Shown here: positions 9,067 to 57,837 of the stretch, piece after piece | Position numbering within the stretch: the first letter of the stretch is position 1 | Layout of the letters: every line of letters begins with the position of its first letter | NCBI RefSeq assembly: GCF_000152625.1 | Contig: NZ_CH724156.1 | Coordinates: 3,154,602 to 3,218,601 of the forward strand | Length of the DNA: 64,000 bases | Origin: Roseovarius nubinhibens ISM | GTDB lineage: Bacteria > Pseudomonadota > Alphaproteobacteria > Rhodobacterales > Rhodobacteraceae | Direction: 5' to 3' | The notes under the pieces: generated by a model | Told to the model about the DNA's origin: nothing | The model's input: only the letters and a program-made list of their open reading frames with translations | Database searches by the model: none | Translations under genes and position numbers: made by a program

Positions 9067-9183
9067 GACCGACTATATTCGTTGAAAATATCCCATGAGT
9101 CACGCATTTTTCGCAATCATTGGGAAAATCTCACAGCCTTCGCGCGGTATCTTGGACAAAATCGCACCACAGGAGGCAGACCC

Positions 9184-9387
9184 ATGATCACCCGCATTTT
9201 CCTCGCCCATCCGCGCAGCGTCGATGAGACCTATCTGCAACATGCGCGCTTTGCCGGGCTCTTTGCGCTGACGCTCTTTGCGGCGGCTTTTGCCGCGCTG
9301 ATCCACGCGATCATCCCCGCCGCCTTTGAAAAGACCGCGAGCCGCATCATCACCCGGCTCTACGAGCGCATTCACAACCGCGGCTGA
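9184..9387 (+). CDS. Small membrane protein, DUF6356-like
   Basis: This 67-residue protein starts at ATG 9184 after the ribosome site AGGAGG. It contains FLAHPRSVDETYLQHARFAGLFALTLF followed by a hydrophobic helix (about 25-48), then FEKTASRIITRLYERIHNRG. The HPRSV-ETY beginning, single membrane segment and basic RLYERI tail resemble what I remember of the DUF6356 family of small alphaproteobacterial proteins; its function is unknown. It is divergent from the Lrp regulator and could be regulated by it. The family name is from memory. Confidence 0.75.
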   Translation: MITRIFLAHPRSVDETYLQHARFAGLFALTLFAAAFAALIHAIIPAAFEKTASRIITRLYERIHNRG

Positions 9388-9413
9388 GGGGGCAAAACCG
9401 CCACTGTCGCTTT

Positions 9414-9442
9414 ACCGCCGTAATACCGACGTGTCACCGACA
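9414..9442 (-). repeat. 11-bp-period repeat, three units
   Basis: On the minus strand, units resembling CGTCGGTAnnn recur with exact 11-base spacing (core hexamers at 9437, 9426 and 9415 on the plus strand). Bases 9414-9433 are identical, in reverse complement, to 27647-27666. It lies in the gap between the small membrane protein and the amidotransferase gene. Confidence 0.8.
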
Positions 9443-9512
9443 TGCCATTTCCGGGGCTTGCGCGGCGGCCCGCGCCCTGCTTAGGCTAAAGTCCGACAAG
9501 GAGGAGCGCCCC

Positions 9513-25008: not shown

Positions 25009-27392
25009 TGAATATAACACCGGTTTTTGAGGTGCCGTGGGAGCGGCAGGGGGTGCTGACGCCGGGGTTGCCGATCCTGCCGCCGGGGGTGGAGAGGCAT
25101 CCGGTGCCGGGCGGGGGCAGCCGGGCGGTGGCGGTCTGGCGCGGCGATGAGATCATGGTGCTCGACCGTGAGGGCATGCAGCCAGTGGAGATGGTCTTCT
25201 TTGGTCCGGACAAACGCTCGGACGCCGGGCGGCTCGGGGCCAAGGGCTATGGCCGGCCCGAGGGCATCATCGCGACCCTCAACAATGGCTCAAGATCAGG
25301 GGCCAAAGTGTTGAAATCGCTGGATGCCGCCGGGTTCGACATTGGCCGGGGCGACGCCATAAGGGCGCTGGGCGAAGGCTCGCGGCCGGGGGATATGGCG
25401 CGGTTCACGGCCGAGCAGGATGGGCTGTTGATCGTGGCCGCACCGGGGGGTGAAATGGGCCCCGAGGGTGAGGGTTTGGCCACGGAATTGACCCTTTATA
25501 TCCGTAGGGCCGATCCGAAACTGGTCAAAATGACCGGGCAGAGCCACGATCCGCTGGCCGATCCGCTCTTGGATGCGACCATTATGCCGGGCGAGGCGAA
25601 ACCCTATGAGGTCCGAAAAGGCCAATATATTCAGATCCTTGACGTGCAGGGCAGAGAGTGTTCGGACTTTCAGGCCTTCTCTATGCGGGCGCTGGACAAG
25701 GGGCTCGAGCGCGAAATTGACCCGACGACGACACGGGCGTTAATGGGAAATCTTTACCCGACCCCCGGAATTTTTTCAAAATACTGGTCGTCGGACCAAG
25801 AACCGCTCGTCGAAATCGTGCAGGACACCTGCGGGCGGCATGACACGTTCGGGCTCGCCTGTACGGCGCGCTATTACGAGGATCTGGGCTATCCGGGCCA
25901 TGTGAATTGTTCGGACAATATGAACGCCGAACTCGGCGCCTATGGCATCCGGCCGCGCGGCGGCTGGGCTGCGATCAACTTTTTCTTCAACACGATGCTG
26001 GATGACGCCAATGCGATCGGGATGGACGATCCCTGGTCACGGCCGGGCGATTTCGTGCTGCTGCGGGCGCTGACCGATCTGGTCTGTGTCTCGACGGCCT
26101 GCCCGTGTGACGTGGACCCGGCCAATGGCTGGAACCCCACGGAAATTCAGCTTCGGACCTATAAGGAAACCGAGAGTTTCCAACGGAGTATCGGTTACAG
26201 GAAATCCACGGAGGCAGATGTGGAAGAGACCAAGAAAACAGCGTTCCACGAGTGTTTCGCACGCCATACCCGCGATTTCATCGAGTATAACGGCTATTGG
26301 CTGGCCAATACGATGACCAATCACGGGGCGATTGCCGAATATTGGGCCTGCCGGGACAAGGTCGCGGTGATGGACCTGAGCCCCTTGCGCAAATACGAGG
26401 TCACGGGGCCGGATGCCGAGGAGCTCATGCAGCTCTGCGTGACGCGCAACATGAAGAAGCTCAGCGTCGGGCAGGTGGTCTATACCGCCATGTGCTATGA
26501 GCATGGCGGTATGATCGACGATGGCACGGTTTACCGGCTCGGCGAGACCAATTTCCGCTGGATCGGCGGCAACGACACGAGCGGGCTCTGGCTGCGCGAA
26601 CAGGCCGAGCGGCATGGGTTGAATGCCTGGGTCCGCAATTCGACCGATCAGCTGCATAATATCGCGGTGCAGGGGCGGCATAGCCGCGATATCCTGTCCA
26701 AGATCTTCTGGACCCCGCCGCAGCAGCCCACCATCGACGAGCTGCCGTGGTTCCGGCTCACCATCGCGCGGCTTGGCGATCTGTCGGGGCCCTCGGTGGT
26801 CATCTCGCGCACCGGCTATAGCGGTGAGCTCGGCTATGAGATCTTTTGCCACCCGAAACATGCCGTTGAAATCTTTGACAAAGTTTGGGAGGCGGGGGCG
26901 CCCTATGGGATCACGCCCCTGGGGCTTGCGGCGCTCGATATGCTGCGGATCGAGGGCGGGCTTATCTTTGCCGGCTCCGAGTTCGACGACACCACGGACC
27001 CCTTTGAGGCGGGCATCGGCTTTACCGTGCCGCTCAAATCCATGGAGGATGATTTCATCGGCCGGGTGGCGGTCGAGCGGCGCAAGGCCAGCCCGCATCG
27101 CAAGCTCGTGGGCTTTGAGGTGCAGGGCGGCGTGGTGCCGGTGCCGGGCGATTGCGTGCGCGTCGGCAAGGCGCAGGTGGGCGAGATCACCAGCGCGATG
27201 AAATCGCCCATTCTGGGCAAGGTGATTGCCCTGGGCCGGGTGGCGCCGGAATATGCCGAACCCGGCACGGTGATCGAGATCGGCCAGCTCGACGGGCTGC
27301 AAAAACGGCTGCGGGCGACGGTGTCGGCCTTTCCGCATTTCGATCCGACAAAGTCCCGGGTGAAGGGCGAATATGCGAGTGAGATGGCCTGA
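25008..27392 (+). CDS. tdm: Trimethylamine N-oxide demethylase (Tdm)
   Basis: I start at ATG 25008, overlapping the previous stop; GTG 25005 is an alternative. The 794-residue protein joins an N-terminal DUF1989-type domain (about 1-390) to a C-terminal GcvT-like tetrahydrofolate domain (about 400-790; MTNHGAIAEYWACRDKVAVMDLS, GYSGELGYEIF). That architecture is characteristic of Tdm, which splits TMAO to dimethylamine and formaldehyde. Cys301, Cys365 and Cys367 (VNCSDN, TACPCD) have the same spacing as the zinc-binding Cys279/343/345 I recall for Methylocella Tdm. Formaldehyde would be captured on tetrahydrofolate. A strong terminator follows. Confidence 0.9.
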   Translation: MNITPVFEVPWERQGVLTPGLPILPPGVERHPVPGGGSRAVAVWRGDEIMVLDREGMQPVEMVFFGPDKRSDAGRLGAKGYGRPEGIIATLNNGSRSGAKVLKSLDAAGFDIGRGDAIRALGEGSRPGDMARFTAEQDGLLIVAAPGGEMGPEGEGLATELTLYIRRADPKLVKMTGQSHDPLADPLLDATIMPGEAKPYEVRKGQYIQILDVQGRECSDFQAFSMRALDKGLEREIDPTTTRALMGNLYPTPGIFSKYWSSDQEPLVEIVQDTCGRHDTFGLACTARYYEDLGYPGHVNCSDNMNAELGAYGIRPRGGWAAINFFFNTMLDDANAIGMDDPWSRPGDFVLLRALTDLVCVSTACPCDVDPANGWNPTEIQLRTYKETESFQRSIGYRKSTEADVEETKKTAFHECFARHTRDFIEYNGYWLANTMTNHGAIAEYWACRDKVAVMDLSPLRKYEVTGPDAEELMQLCVTRNMKKLSVGQVVYTAMCYEHGGMIDDGTVYRLGETNFRWIGGNDTSGLWLREQAERHGLNAWVRNSTDQLHNIAVQGRHSRDILSKIFWTPPQQPTIDELPWFRLTIARLGDLSGPSVVISRTGYSGELGYEIFCHPKHAVEIFDKVWEAGAPYGITPLGLAALDMLRIEGGLIFAGSEFDDTTDPFEAGIGFTVPLKSMEDDFIGRVAVERRKASPHRKLVGFEVQGGVVPVPGDCVRVGKAQVGEITSAMKSPILGKVIALGRVAPEYAEPGTVIEIGQLDGLQKRLRATVSAFPHFDPTKSRVKGEYASEMA

Positions 27393-27421
27393 GACCGGGC
27401 CATGAGGTAGATGGTTAACGG

Positions 27422-27453
27422 CGGCGGGTGCATGGGATCGCACCCGCCGTTTT
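27422..27453 (+). terminator. Terminator of the tmo-tdm operon
   Basis: CGGCGGGTGC (27422-27431) and GCACCCGCCG (27440-27449) form a perfect 10-bp stem with an eight-base loop, followed by TTTT. Confidence 0.9.
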
Positions 27454-27721
27454 CTATAGGGTTGGGGTTTTTGAGATTATTATATAAGTCCAGTATTACG
27501 GGTGCTTAGAGATCACTCTTGAACTATTAACCGAAATGCCATCTGAGCGGGTTTTGACCGCTTGTCGCGCCGCGTTAACCTTTGGCGAGACCTCGTCGAG
27601 AGGGTCAAAATGGCCCGTCGGCAGCCCGTCGGCAGCGCGTCGGTATCACGTCGGTATTACGGCGGTGGGGGAGTCGGGCGCGGTTGTGCAGGGCGCAAAT
27701 CTTGCCACAAGGGGCGATGGC
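27454..27721. other. Non-coding stretch between convergent operons
   Basis: No gene is evident between the tdm terminator and the VWA gene end. The first part (to about 27540) is AT-richer. The middle holds the five-unit 11-bp repeat described separately. I see no second terminator that clearly serves the minus-strand VWA gene. Confidence 0.5.
27616..27670 (+). repeat. 11-bp-period tandem repeat, five units
   Basis: Core hexamers CGTCGG begin at 27616, 27627, 27638 and 27649, with a variant CGGCGG at 27660, exactly 11 bases apart. The unit is CGTCGGYAnnn. Bases 27647-27666 match 9414-9433 exactly in reverse complement. One unit equals about one helical turn, so all copies would present the same face of the DNA. 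Confidence 0.9.
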
Positions 27722-56332: not shown

Positions 56333-57700
56333 ATGAGCGAGTGGCAGAAAAAAGGATGGCGCAACAAGCCGCGGATCCAGATGCCCGACTATCTGGATAT
56401 GGATGCGCTGCAGGATGTCGAGGCGCGCCTTAGCCAGTATCCGCCGCTCGTCTTTGCAGGCGAAGCGCGGCGGCTCAAGGCCCAGCTTGGGGCGGCGGCG
56501 CGCGGCGAGGCCTTCCTGTTGCAGGGCGGCGATTGTGCCGAGGCCTTTGACCAATTCAGCGCCGATGGCATCCGTGACACGTTCAAGGTGATGCTGCAGA
56601 TGGCGATGGTGCTCACCTATGGCGCCAAGGTGCCGGTGATCAAAGTGGGCCGCATCGCGGGCCAGTTCGCCAAGCCGCGTTCGGCGCCCACGGAAACCCA
56701 GGGCGATGTCGAGCTTCCGAGCTTCCGGGGCGATATCATCAACGAGCTGGACTTCACGCCCGAGGCGAGAATTCCCAACCCGTCCAAGATGTTGCAGGCC
56801 TATACTCAAGCAGCGGCGACGCTCAACCTGATCCGGGCTTTTTCAACGGGCGGCTATGCCGATGTGCATCAGGTCCATGCCTGGACGCTGGGCTTTACCG
56901 AGGGTGAGAAGGCCGCGCGCTATCGTGAGATGGCGAACCGGATCAGCGATACGCTCGACTTCATGAAGGCCGCCGGTGTCGACAGTGACAGCGCCCATAC
57001 GCTGCAGACGGTGGATTTCTACACCAGCCACGAGAGCCTGCTTCTGGAGTATGAAGAGGCGCTGACGCGGGTGGATACGACCACGGGCAAATGGCTGGCG
57101 GGGTCGGGGCATTTCCTGTGGATCGGGGACCGCACGCGGCAGCCGGATGGCGCGCATGTGGAGTTCCTGCGCGGCGTGCAGAACCCGATCGGGTTCAAAT
57201 GCGGACCGTCGATCACGCCGGAGGATCTCAAGCAGCTTATCGGCATTCTGAACCCGAAGAACGAGCCGGGCCGGATCACCCTGATCAACCGCTTTGGCGC
57301 GGGCAATGTGGGCGAACATCTGCCCAAGCTGATCCGCACCGTGGCCGAGGAAGGCTTTGACGTAACCTGGGTCTGCGACCCGATGCATGGCAATACGATC
57401 AAATCGGCCAGCGGCTATAAAACCCGGCCTTTTGAACGGGTTCTGCGCGAGGTGCGGGAATTTTTCGCGATCCACAAGGCCGAGGGCACGATCCCCGGCG
57501 GGGTGCATTTCGAGATGACCGGTCAGGACGTGACCGAGTGTATCGGGGGCGTCCAGGCGGTCAGCGAGGAAAACCTGAGCGACCGCTACCACACGGCCTG
57601 CGATCCGCGTCTCAACGCGTCGCAATCGCTCGAGCTGGCCTTCCTCGTGGCCGAGGAATTGTCGAGCCTGCGCGAGGACCGGCAAGCCGTCGCGGTGTAA
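56333..57700 (+). CDS. Class II DAHP synthase
   Basis: This 455-residue enzyme condenses phosphoenolpyruvate and erythrose 4-phosphate to 3-deoxy-arabino-heptulosonate 7-phosphate, the first shikimate step. It is the plant-like class II form. Visible signatures include [45 protein letters not shown] and [13 protein letters not shown] with the metal-binding His and Cys region. Start ATG 56333 follows GGAGAGAG. A perfect terminator follows. Confidence 0.95.
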
Positions 57701-57723: not shown

Positions 57724-57751
57724 AAAGGCGGGGGAAACCCCGCCTTTTTTT
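57724..57751 (+). terminator. Terminator after the DAHP synthase gene
   Basis: AAAGGCGGGG (57724-57733), GAAA loop, CCCCGCCTTT (57738-57747) and a run of T to 57751 form a strong intrinsic terminator. Confidence 0.95.
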
Positions 57752-57752
57752 A

Positions 57753-57796
57753 TGTCGGTATCCCGTCGGTAAAACGACGGCAGCGCGTCGGTGCAC
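57753..57796 (+). repeat. 11-bp-period repeat, four units
   Basis: Core hexamers begin at 57753 (TGTCGG), 57764 (CGTCGG), 57775 (CGACGG) and 57786 (CGTCGG), exactly 11 bases apart. It starts directly after the DAHP synthase terminator, between convergent genes. Bases 57753-57780 match 27638-27665 at 23 of 28 positions. Confidence 0.85.
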
Positions 57797-57837
57797 ATTT
57801 TGCCCCCTCGATACGCCCCGATTTCGCGCCTCGAAGG

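Follow-up and report, generated by a model that had tools for sequence, protein, structure and literature searches.

The tandem 11-bp repeats found in the window (the whole stretch of 64,000 nucleotides that was analysed) are part of a family of at least 150 composite elements of about 60 bp, which are oriented with respect to replication and are more evenly spaced along the chromosome than under random placement. These results suggest that the arrays are unrecognised chromosome signposts for a putative protein. To our knowledge, the known bacterial replication-polar signals are short and common, and long dispersed repeats are not tied to replication direction. A replication-oriented, over-evenly spaced element of about 60 bp would give a concrete handle on the sequences that tell machines the direction from origin to terminus, and would also show how such a direction code changes between related genera.

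Anatomy of the element and its copies in the genome

The original prediction described five units at an 11-bp step at 27616-27670, four units at 57753-57796 and three units on the minus strand at 9414-9442. Direct reading reproduced the first two arrays unit by unit (Table 1), as well as the exact reverse complementarity of 27647-27666 and 9414-9433. The third array is indeed on the minus strand, but its three units are the central part of an element with four units (9389-9454). Thus, the arrays are real, but a head, a tail and a fourth unit had been missed, the arrays being parts of elements of about 57-66 bp in total with an AAATG-type head, four 11-bp units (five in the 27616 array) and a CGACAGTG-type tail. 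When the window was searched for CGTCGGTANNNCGTCGG with up to two mismatches, nine matches were obtained, all of them within the three arrays, compared to 0.51 ± 0.78 (largest 4) in 100 dinucleotide shuffles, so that the arrays stand well apart from shuffled sequence.

Table 1. Elements of the window and arrays found behind the VWA gene in other genomes
Feature	Location	Strand	Anatomy	66-bp profile (bits)	R1 covariance-model match	Flanks
Complete canonical element	9389..9454	-	head GGAAATGGCA, four 11-bp units, tail CGACAGTGGCGGTTTT	82.1	C2:3163992-3164054, 65.6 bits	just 3' of + strand stop codon at 9385-9387
Five-unit element	27615..27680	+	units at 27616, 27627, 27638, 27649, 27660 (direct reading)	51.0	C2:3182226-3182280, 51.8 bits	between convergent gene ends at 27392 and 27722
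Four-unit element	57741..57806	+	units at 57753, 57764, 57775, 57786 (direct reading)	50.4	C2:3212353-3212405, 42.8 bits	between convergent gene ends at 57700 and 57838
Array behind VWA gene	Shimia sp. CNT1-13L.2 (L228)					
Array behind VWA gene	Aquicoccus porphyridii (L225)					
Array behind VWA gene	Marimonas lutisalis (L211)					

As had been claimed, two of the three arrays lie between convergent genes according to the gene calls, and the third follows a + strand stop. These calls come from a simple caller, which is wrong at least at 9100-9375 of the window, where a minus-strand gene was called instead of the actual + strand frame that runs to the stop at 9387. By direct reading, a terminator-like hairpin with a T run immediately precedes the 57741..57806 element, and terminator-like hairpins adjoin several elements (window 27419-27455 and 57727-57752; C2:587066 and 1373729).

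Genome-wide, CGTCGGTANNNCGTCGG gave 61 matches vs. none for a control pattern, and CGTCGGNNNNNCGTCGG gave 82 vs. two for the reversed control pattern. A 66-position profile detected 75 copies at 40 bits or more in 620,559 bases of the same genome, these bases being the stretches picked by the exact pattern; the first consensus omitted locus L040, and L097 was omitted as a duplicate of part of the window. A sequence-only covariance model (R1), built from 66 profile-found copies, revealed at least 150 copies genome-wide at E ≤ 6e-7, a lower bound as 150 of 2201 candidates were scored. The many copies genome-wide that the original prediction named as support are therefore present, far in excess of the control, and the outcomes that it named as refuting did not occur. 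Among the matches listed, all lie on the 3.58-Mb contig C2, with 121 of the at least 150 copies in the sampled stretches and 29 outside them. The intergenic location that had been claimed holds for most copies, but genome-wide 11 of 121 are inside predicted genes.

The aligned copies share a unit consensus that is mostly CGnCnGYRnnn. Each of the four units has its own spacer (TGTCGGTnACA, CGTCGGTATTG, CGTCGGTAAAG and CGACAGTGnG), with a head around AAATG and a tail around GATTT. For the analysis of base conservation, the alignment was anchored on the exact pair by which the copies had been found (81 pairs at 72 sites) and, leaving ASCERTAINMENT aside, bases were counted in the next unit, which was unused for finding except in overlapping pairs (C78 G76 A58 C76 A37 G79 T61 G44, of 81). 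Positions 1, 2, 4 and 6 were kept in 94-98% of cases, compared to 72% for position 3 and 46% for position 5, with near-random bases at positions 9-10 (0.07 and 0.24 bits). Such alternation of kept and free bases points to contacts of a DNA-binding protein. The earlier proposal of protein binding on one face or nucleoid organisation is therefore supported in part, by a large, mainly intergenic, 11-bp-phased family with contact-like conservation; given the fixed phasing and this conservation, putative protein contacts along one side of the helix and a putative role in chromosome organisation are reasonable.

Orientation and spacing along the chromosome

Three exact parS sites (C2:1380409-1382602) mark the origin. 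A dif-like site, AAGTCGCATAATCAGTATTATGTTAATA, is located at C2:3227986 (L266), about 9.4 kb past the right end of the window; it matches 19 of 28 positions of the E. coli dif sequence, with a switch in the sign of the GC skew no more than about 10 kb away. The window thus adjoins the replication terminus. The elements switch strand in the interval of 1.374-1.394 Mb, which contains the three parS sites, and again between 3.212 and 3.264 Mb, around the dif-like site at 3,227,986, a weak copy at 3.2475 Mb being already on the minus strand.

With the replichores defined by parS and dif, 111 of 150 copies among the matches listed were in the leading-strand orientation. The strand of the element coincided with the sign of the local GC skew (the element itself excluded) in 116 of the 121 copies in the sampled stretches, the five that disagree having skews of -0.057 to 0. 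These 121 include the copies in 40 stretches around model matches outside the exact-pattern list, of which 44 of 46 agreed. In the window, the 9389..9454 element lies opposite to its own replichore, at a local skew of about zero (-0.001). Out of the 121 copies, 33 are off the replichore direction, 28 of these where the local GC skew is also reversed (e.g. 1.50-1.785 Mb). This block of C2 and smaller ones look like inversions, skew and element strand being both reversed as expected for them.

GC skew showed no correlation with gene strand (r = -0.002, 99 stretches) and third-position skew changed sign along with it; therefore, GC skew is here no by-product of gene strand. The element strand was that of the net gene strand in 38 of 75 copies, and in 57 co-directional gaps it was the same as that of the genes in 25 and opposite in 32. 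Thus, of the two relations raised in the original prediction, to gene ends and to replication, it is replication and not the genes that orientation follows.

From origin to terminus, strand bias rose by quarter among the matches listed (18/33, 25/37, 34/43 and 34/37; Spearman 0.26, p = 0.0014), with a flat abundance of 33, 37, 43 and 37 copies. The rise may be due to inversions, as GC skew reverses with most exceptions. Copies reversed relative to their replichore (39 of 150 among the matches listed) were no more degenerate than the others (p = 0.41), and so give no sign of a penalty for wrong orientation, which counts against a binding site.

Consecutive copies were separated by a mean of 23.8 kb among the matches listed. 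The coefficient of variation of these gaps was 0.665 vs. 0.989 ± 0.079 for random placement, below all 5000 simulations, and 0.614 vs. 0.914 when copies less than 2 kb apart were merged. Six close same-strand pairs were seen (C2:192147/192786, 637944/638039, 1046194/1046264, 2296973/2297069, 2699735/2699861 and 2741988/2742079), five of them 70-126 bp apart, and one further close pair, C2:167664/168961, is on opposite strands. Regarding the neighbouring genes, 38 of 109 intergenic copies are in convergent gaps and 14 in divergent gaps, compared to 69 convergent and 130 divergent among the 445 gaps of at least 60 bp in the same stretches, element-bearing ones included (one copy with an incomplete flank is omitted from the gene-context table).

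Arrays in other genomes

In a family sample of 394 genomes from 393 genera, the strict pattern was detected in 32 genomes, 17 of them with at least 10 matches; its absence from the other 362 counts against the binding-site reading. Triple CGTCGG with free spacers was also found in 32 of 394, adding G142 (94 matches) and G294 (60), although several single matches with unrelated spacers look like chance. Within the class, it was present in two of 115 genomes, both of the same family, and in none of the 113 outside it. Spaced CGTCGG, which the original prediction proposed to look for in related Rhodobacteraceae, is therefore present in some genera but absent from most of those sampled. The congener G278 had no strict pair genome-wide and no dispersed array in the 380 kb sampled, which again counts against binding sites. 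In its contig C1 a lone four-unit 11-bp array of another kind was seen (L273:377-410; TGCTCTAGTGG TGCTATAGTGC TGCTCTATTGG TGCTTTAG).

The reversed control pattern was unexpectedly matched in G211 (36 matches), G377 (19) and G349 (7). These genomes carry 11-bp arrays with a GGCTGC core, placed behind a head, GGGGGGTGAC, in G377 and G349. The arrays were on the G-rich strand (3 kb) in 19 of 19 copies examined, of 26 matches, in G377 and G349 and in 9 of 11 copies examined, of 36 matches, in G211. A reading in the register of the units described above (GnCnG) is possible for the GGCTGC units, but not all of them keep the initial C or the YR step. With its head, the GGCTGC pattern was found in three of 120 genomes, with one or two pattern matches each. 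Apart from this, the reversed control pattern (GGCTGC triples) had one to three matches each in G023, G042, G196, G285, G293 and G388. A CGTCGG type with a different head and tail is present in G269 (97 matches), where, of 22 copies in 20 stretches, 20 were on the G-rich strand and 10 matched the net gene strand. GTTAAC or GTTAA appeared frequent in the intergenic flanks of the elements, both in the genome of the window and in G269, in whose tail consensus it is present; this is a raw impression with no chance expectation.

The reported array adjoins a VWA gene; among 80 named loci around this gene, three carry an array behind it (Table 1). A first periodicity scan of these 80 loci with a high threshold gave nothing at lag 11, and a hexamer scan gave three triples at that lag, including the L225 array. 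The copies of Aquicoccus and Marimonas have the genes on either side and much flanking sequence in common, and so look inherited in place. Regarding orthologues of the immediate neighbours of foreign elements, 10 of 33 also flank an element here, compared to 210 of 850 (25%) for all genes in the sampled stretches and to three of 35 for neighbours in second to fourth position (p = 0.03); when the two loci picked around the gene of the window itself were left out, the figure was eight of 31 (p = 0.10).

A phage or plasmid origin was rejected, the consensus having no match among 72,556 plasmid records and 50,697 phage records. In IMG/VR, three and two stretches matched the two core patterns; the full array was present only in L327, with a single pair each in L326 and L328 and no array in L329 and L330.

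Possible roles and comparison with known elements

The reading that we place first, at about even chances, is that the elements are polar binding sites for a putative protein in replication-coupled chromosome organisation or segregation. Each element would be a polar multi-site platform for a putative sequence-specific protein, in which four (three to five) sites one helical turn apart would bring the contacts to one DNA face and the subunits side by side, and the unlike ends, head and tail, would give the array a direction. Arrays about every 24 kb along the leading strand could then allow a moving machine, such as a segregation translocase, a loop extruder or a fork-coupled factor, to distinguish ori-to-ter from ter-to-ori. 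We infer the protein binding, its cooperativity, the moving machine and the function from sequence features. A kept function is favoured by the contact-like conservation, the over-even spacing and a polarity common to the different types in other genera.

A serious competitor, though we consider it rather unlikely, is a non-autonomous mobile repeat with insertion biased to one template strand of the fork, like IS608 and ISDra2, which target the lagging-strand template according to the abstract of PMC6006769. Orientation would then record insertion, even spacing would result from target immunity or purging, and no host function would be needed. Copying must have spread the element, since a composite of about 60 bp would hardly arise 150 times independently. 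Plain mobility is also favoured by the patchy distribution across genomes, by a positional conservation across genera that is not clear and by the lack of decay in reversed copies, and the preference for convergent and avoidance of divergent gaps would agree with it. In contrast, contact and spacer positions differ sharply, whereas neutral decay would strike both alike and is not expected to produce such alternation, which favours a kept function. Strand-specific insertion could explain the orientation and target immunity the spacing, but neither explains the kept bases 1, 2, 4 and 6 of the unit; therefore, binding sites are ranked first and the mobile repeat second. The lack of a Y1 transposase in the same genome (0 matches, G000) supports this ranking; the enzyme was found in two of 14 carriers tested (G151 and G349) and in none of four non-carriers, that is, in two of 18 genomes overall. 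Also against mobility, no hairpin is supported, as none of six predicted pairs had a compensatory change, and plasmid and phage records lack the consensus. If the element were nevertheless a mobile repeat, it would exemplify replication-strand-specific insertion in a genome without Y1 transposase. Both readings can be successively true, the repeat being dispersed first and later put to use.

A further reading, which we regard as speculative and improbable, is a bacterial counterpart of oriented loop-extrusion boundaries. The arrays would load a putative clamp-like protein, an SMC complex or other motor would pass in the ori-to-ter direction and be slowed in reverse, and protein and site would have been adjusted jointly in the different genera, the site variants being CGTCGG, CGTCGG with different spacers, and GGCTGC behind the GGGGGGTGAC head.

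Chi is a short signal and Ter sites are concentrated around the terminus. A chromosome-wide Chi-like signal for recombination or repair, or a Ter-like site of polar fork arrest, would agree with the strand polarity and the even spacing of about 24 kb, but is quite improbable. Single units outside the elements were hardly biased, unlike a short Chi, with leading vs. lagging counts of 7 vs. 3 for CGTCGGTA, 16 vs. 16 for GTCGGTA and 375 vs. 281 for CGTCGG, and on this basis a Chi-like single-unit signal was rejected. In contrast to a Tus-Ter fork trap, the elements are spread over the whole chromosome without concentration near the terminus, as seen in the flat counts by quarter among the matches listed.

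A role in transcription, as terminator, as insulator or in 3'-end processing, is very improbable, since the orientation of the elements is independent of the flanking genes and there is neither a conserved RNA fold nor an Rfam match in the window, despite the copies in convergent gaps (38 of 109 intergenic ones) and those abutting terminator-like hairpins (window 57741). An RNA or hairpin element was discarded, as covariation was absent (RNAalifold -5.13 kcal/mol, 0 compensatory pairs) and the window gave no Rfam match at the gathering threshold.

According to a passage of PMC5993296, the AIMS (architecture imparting sequences) are octamers that become more abundant toward the terminus. The elements resemble them in leading-strand polarity and in a strand bias rising toward the terminus, but are four-unit arrays of about 60 bp with flat abundance; conservation extends over about 57-66 bp, isolated CGTCGGTA being just 7 to 3. 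The element is described neither in that passage nor in those seen of PMC7901474, which treats dif and KOPS in Dinoroseobacter shibae. Searches of one library of open full-text literature gave no description of it and no occurrence of six literal repeat strings. The original statement that no named element matches was thus upheld in Rfam (window), in plasmid and phage records and in the open literature searched.

REP/BIME, RAYT and IS200/IS605 derivatives are similarly dispersed intergenic repeats near gene ends with a possible strand bias, but the present element has no conserved hairpin and the genome no Y1 transposase, for which reason RAYT/REP mobilisation was rejected. The BOX-type composite repeats of pneumococcus also consist of a head, a variable number of units and a tail; by description, the elements are set apart from them by 11-bp, helically phased units and replication polarity. 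ParR-parC and other direct-repeat centromeres of 10-11 bp share the tandem sites one helical turn apart, but there is one site per plasmid, compared to at least 150 per chromosome here.

Finally, GGGNAGGG, the KOPS motif, a leading-strand-abundant octamer recognised by the gamma domain of the FtsK translocase, provides polar sites in the origin-to-dif direction as the elements do, but is absent from the element consensus. Outside the elements it was found 134 times on the leading strand vs. 24 on the lagging strand in 620 kb of the same genome, a bias as expected for ordinary KOPS.
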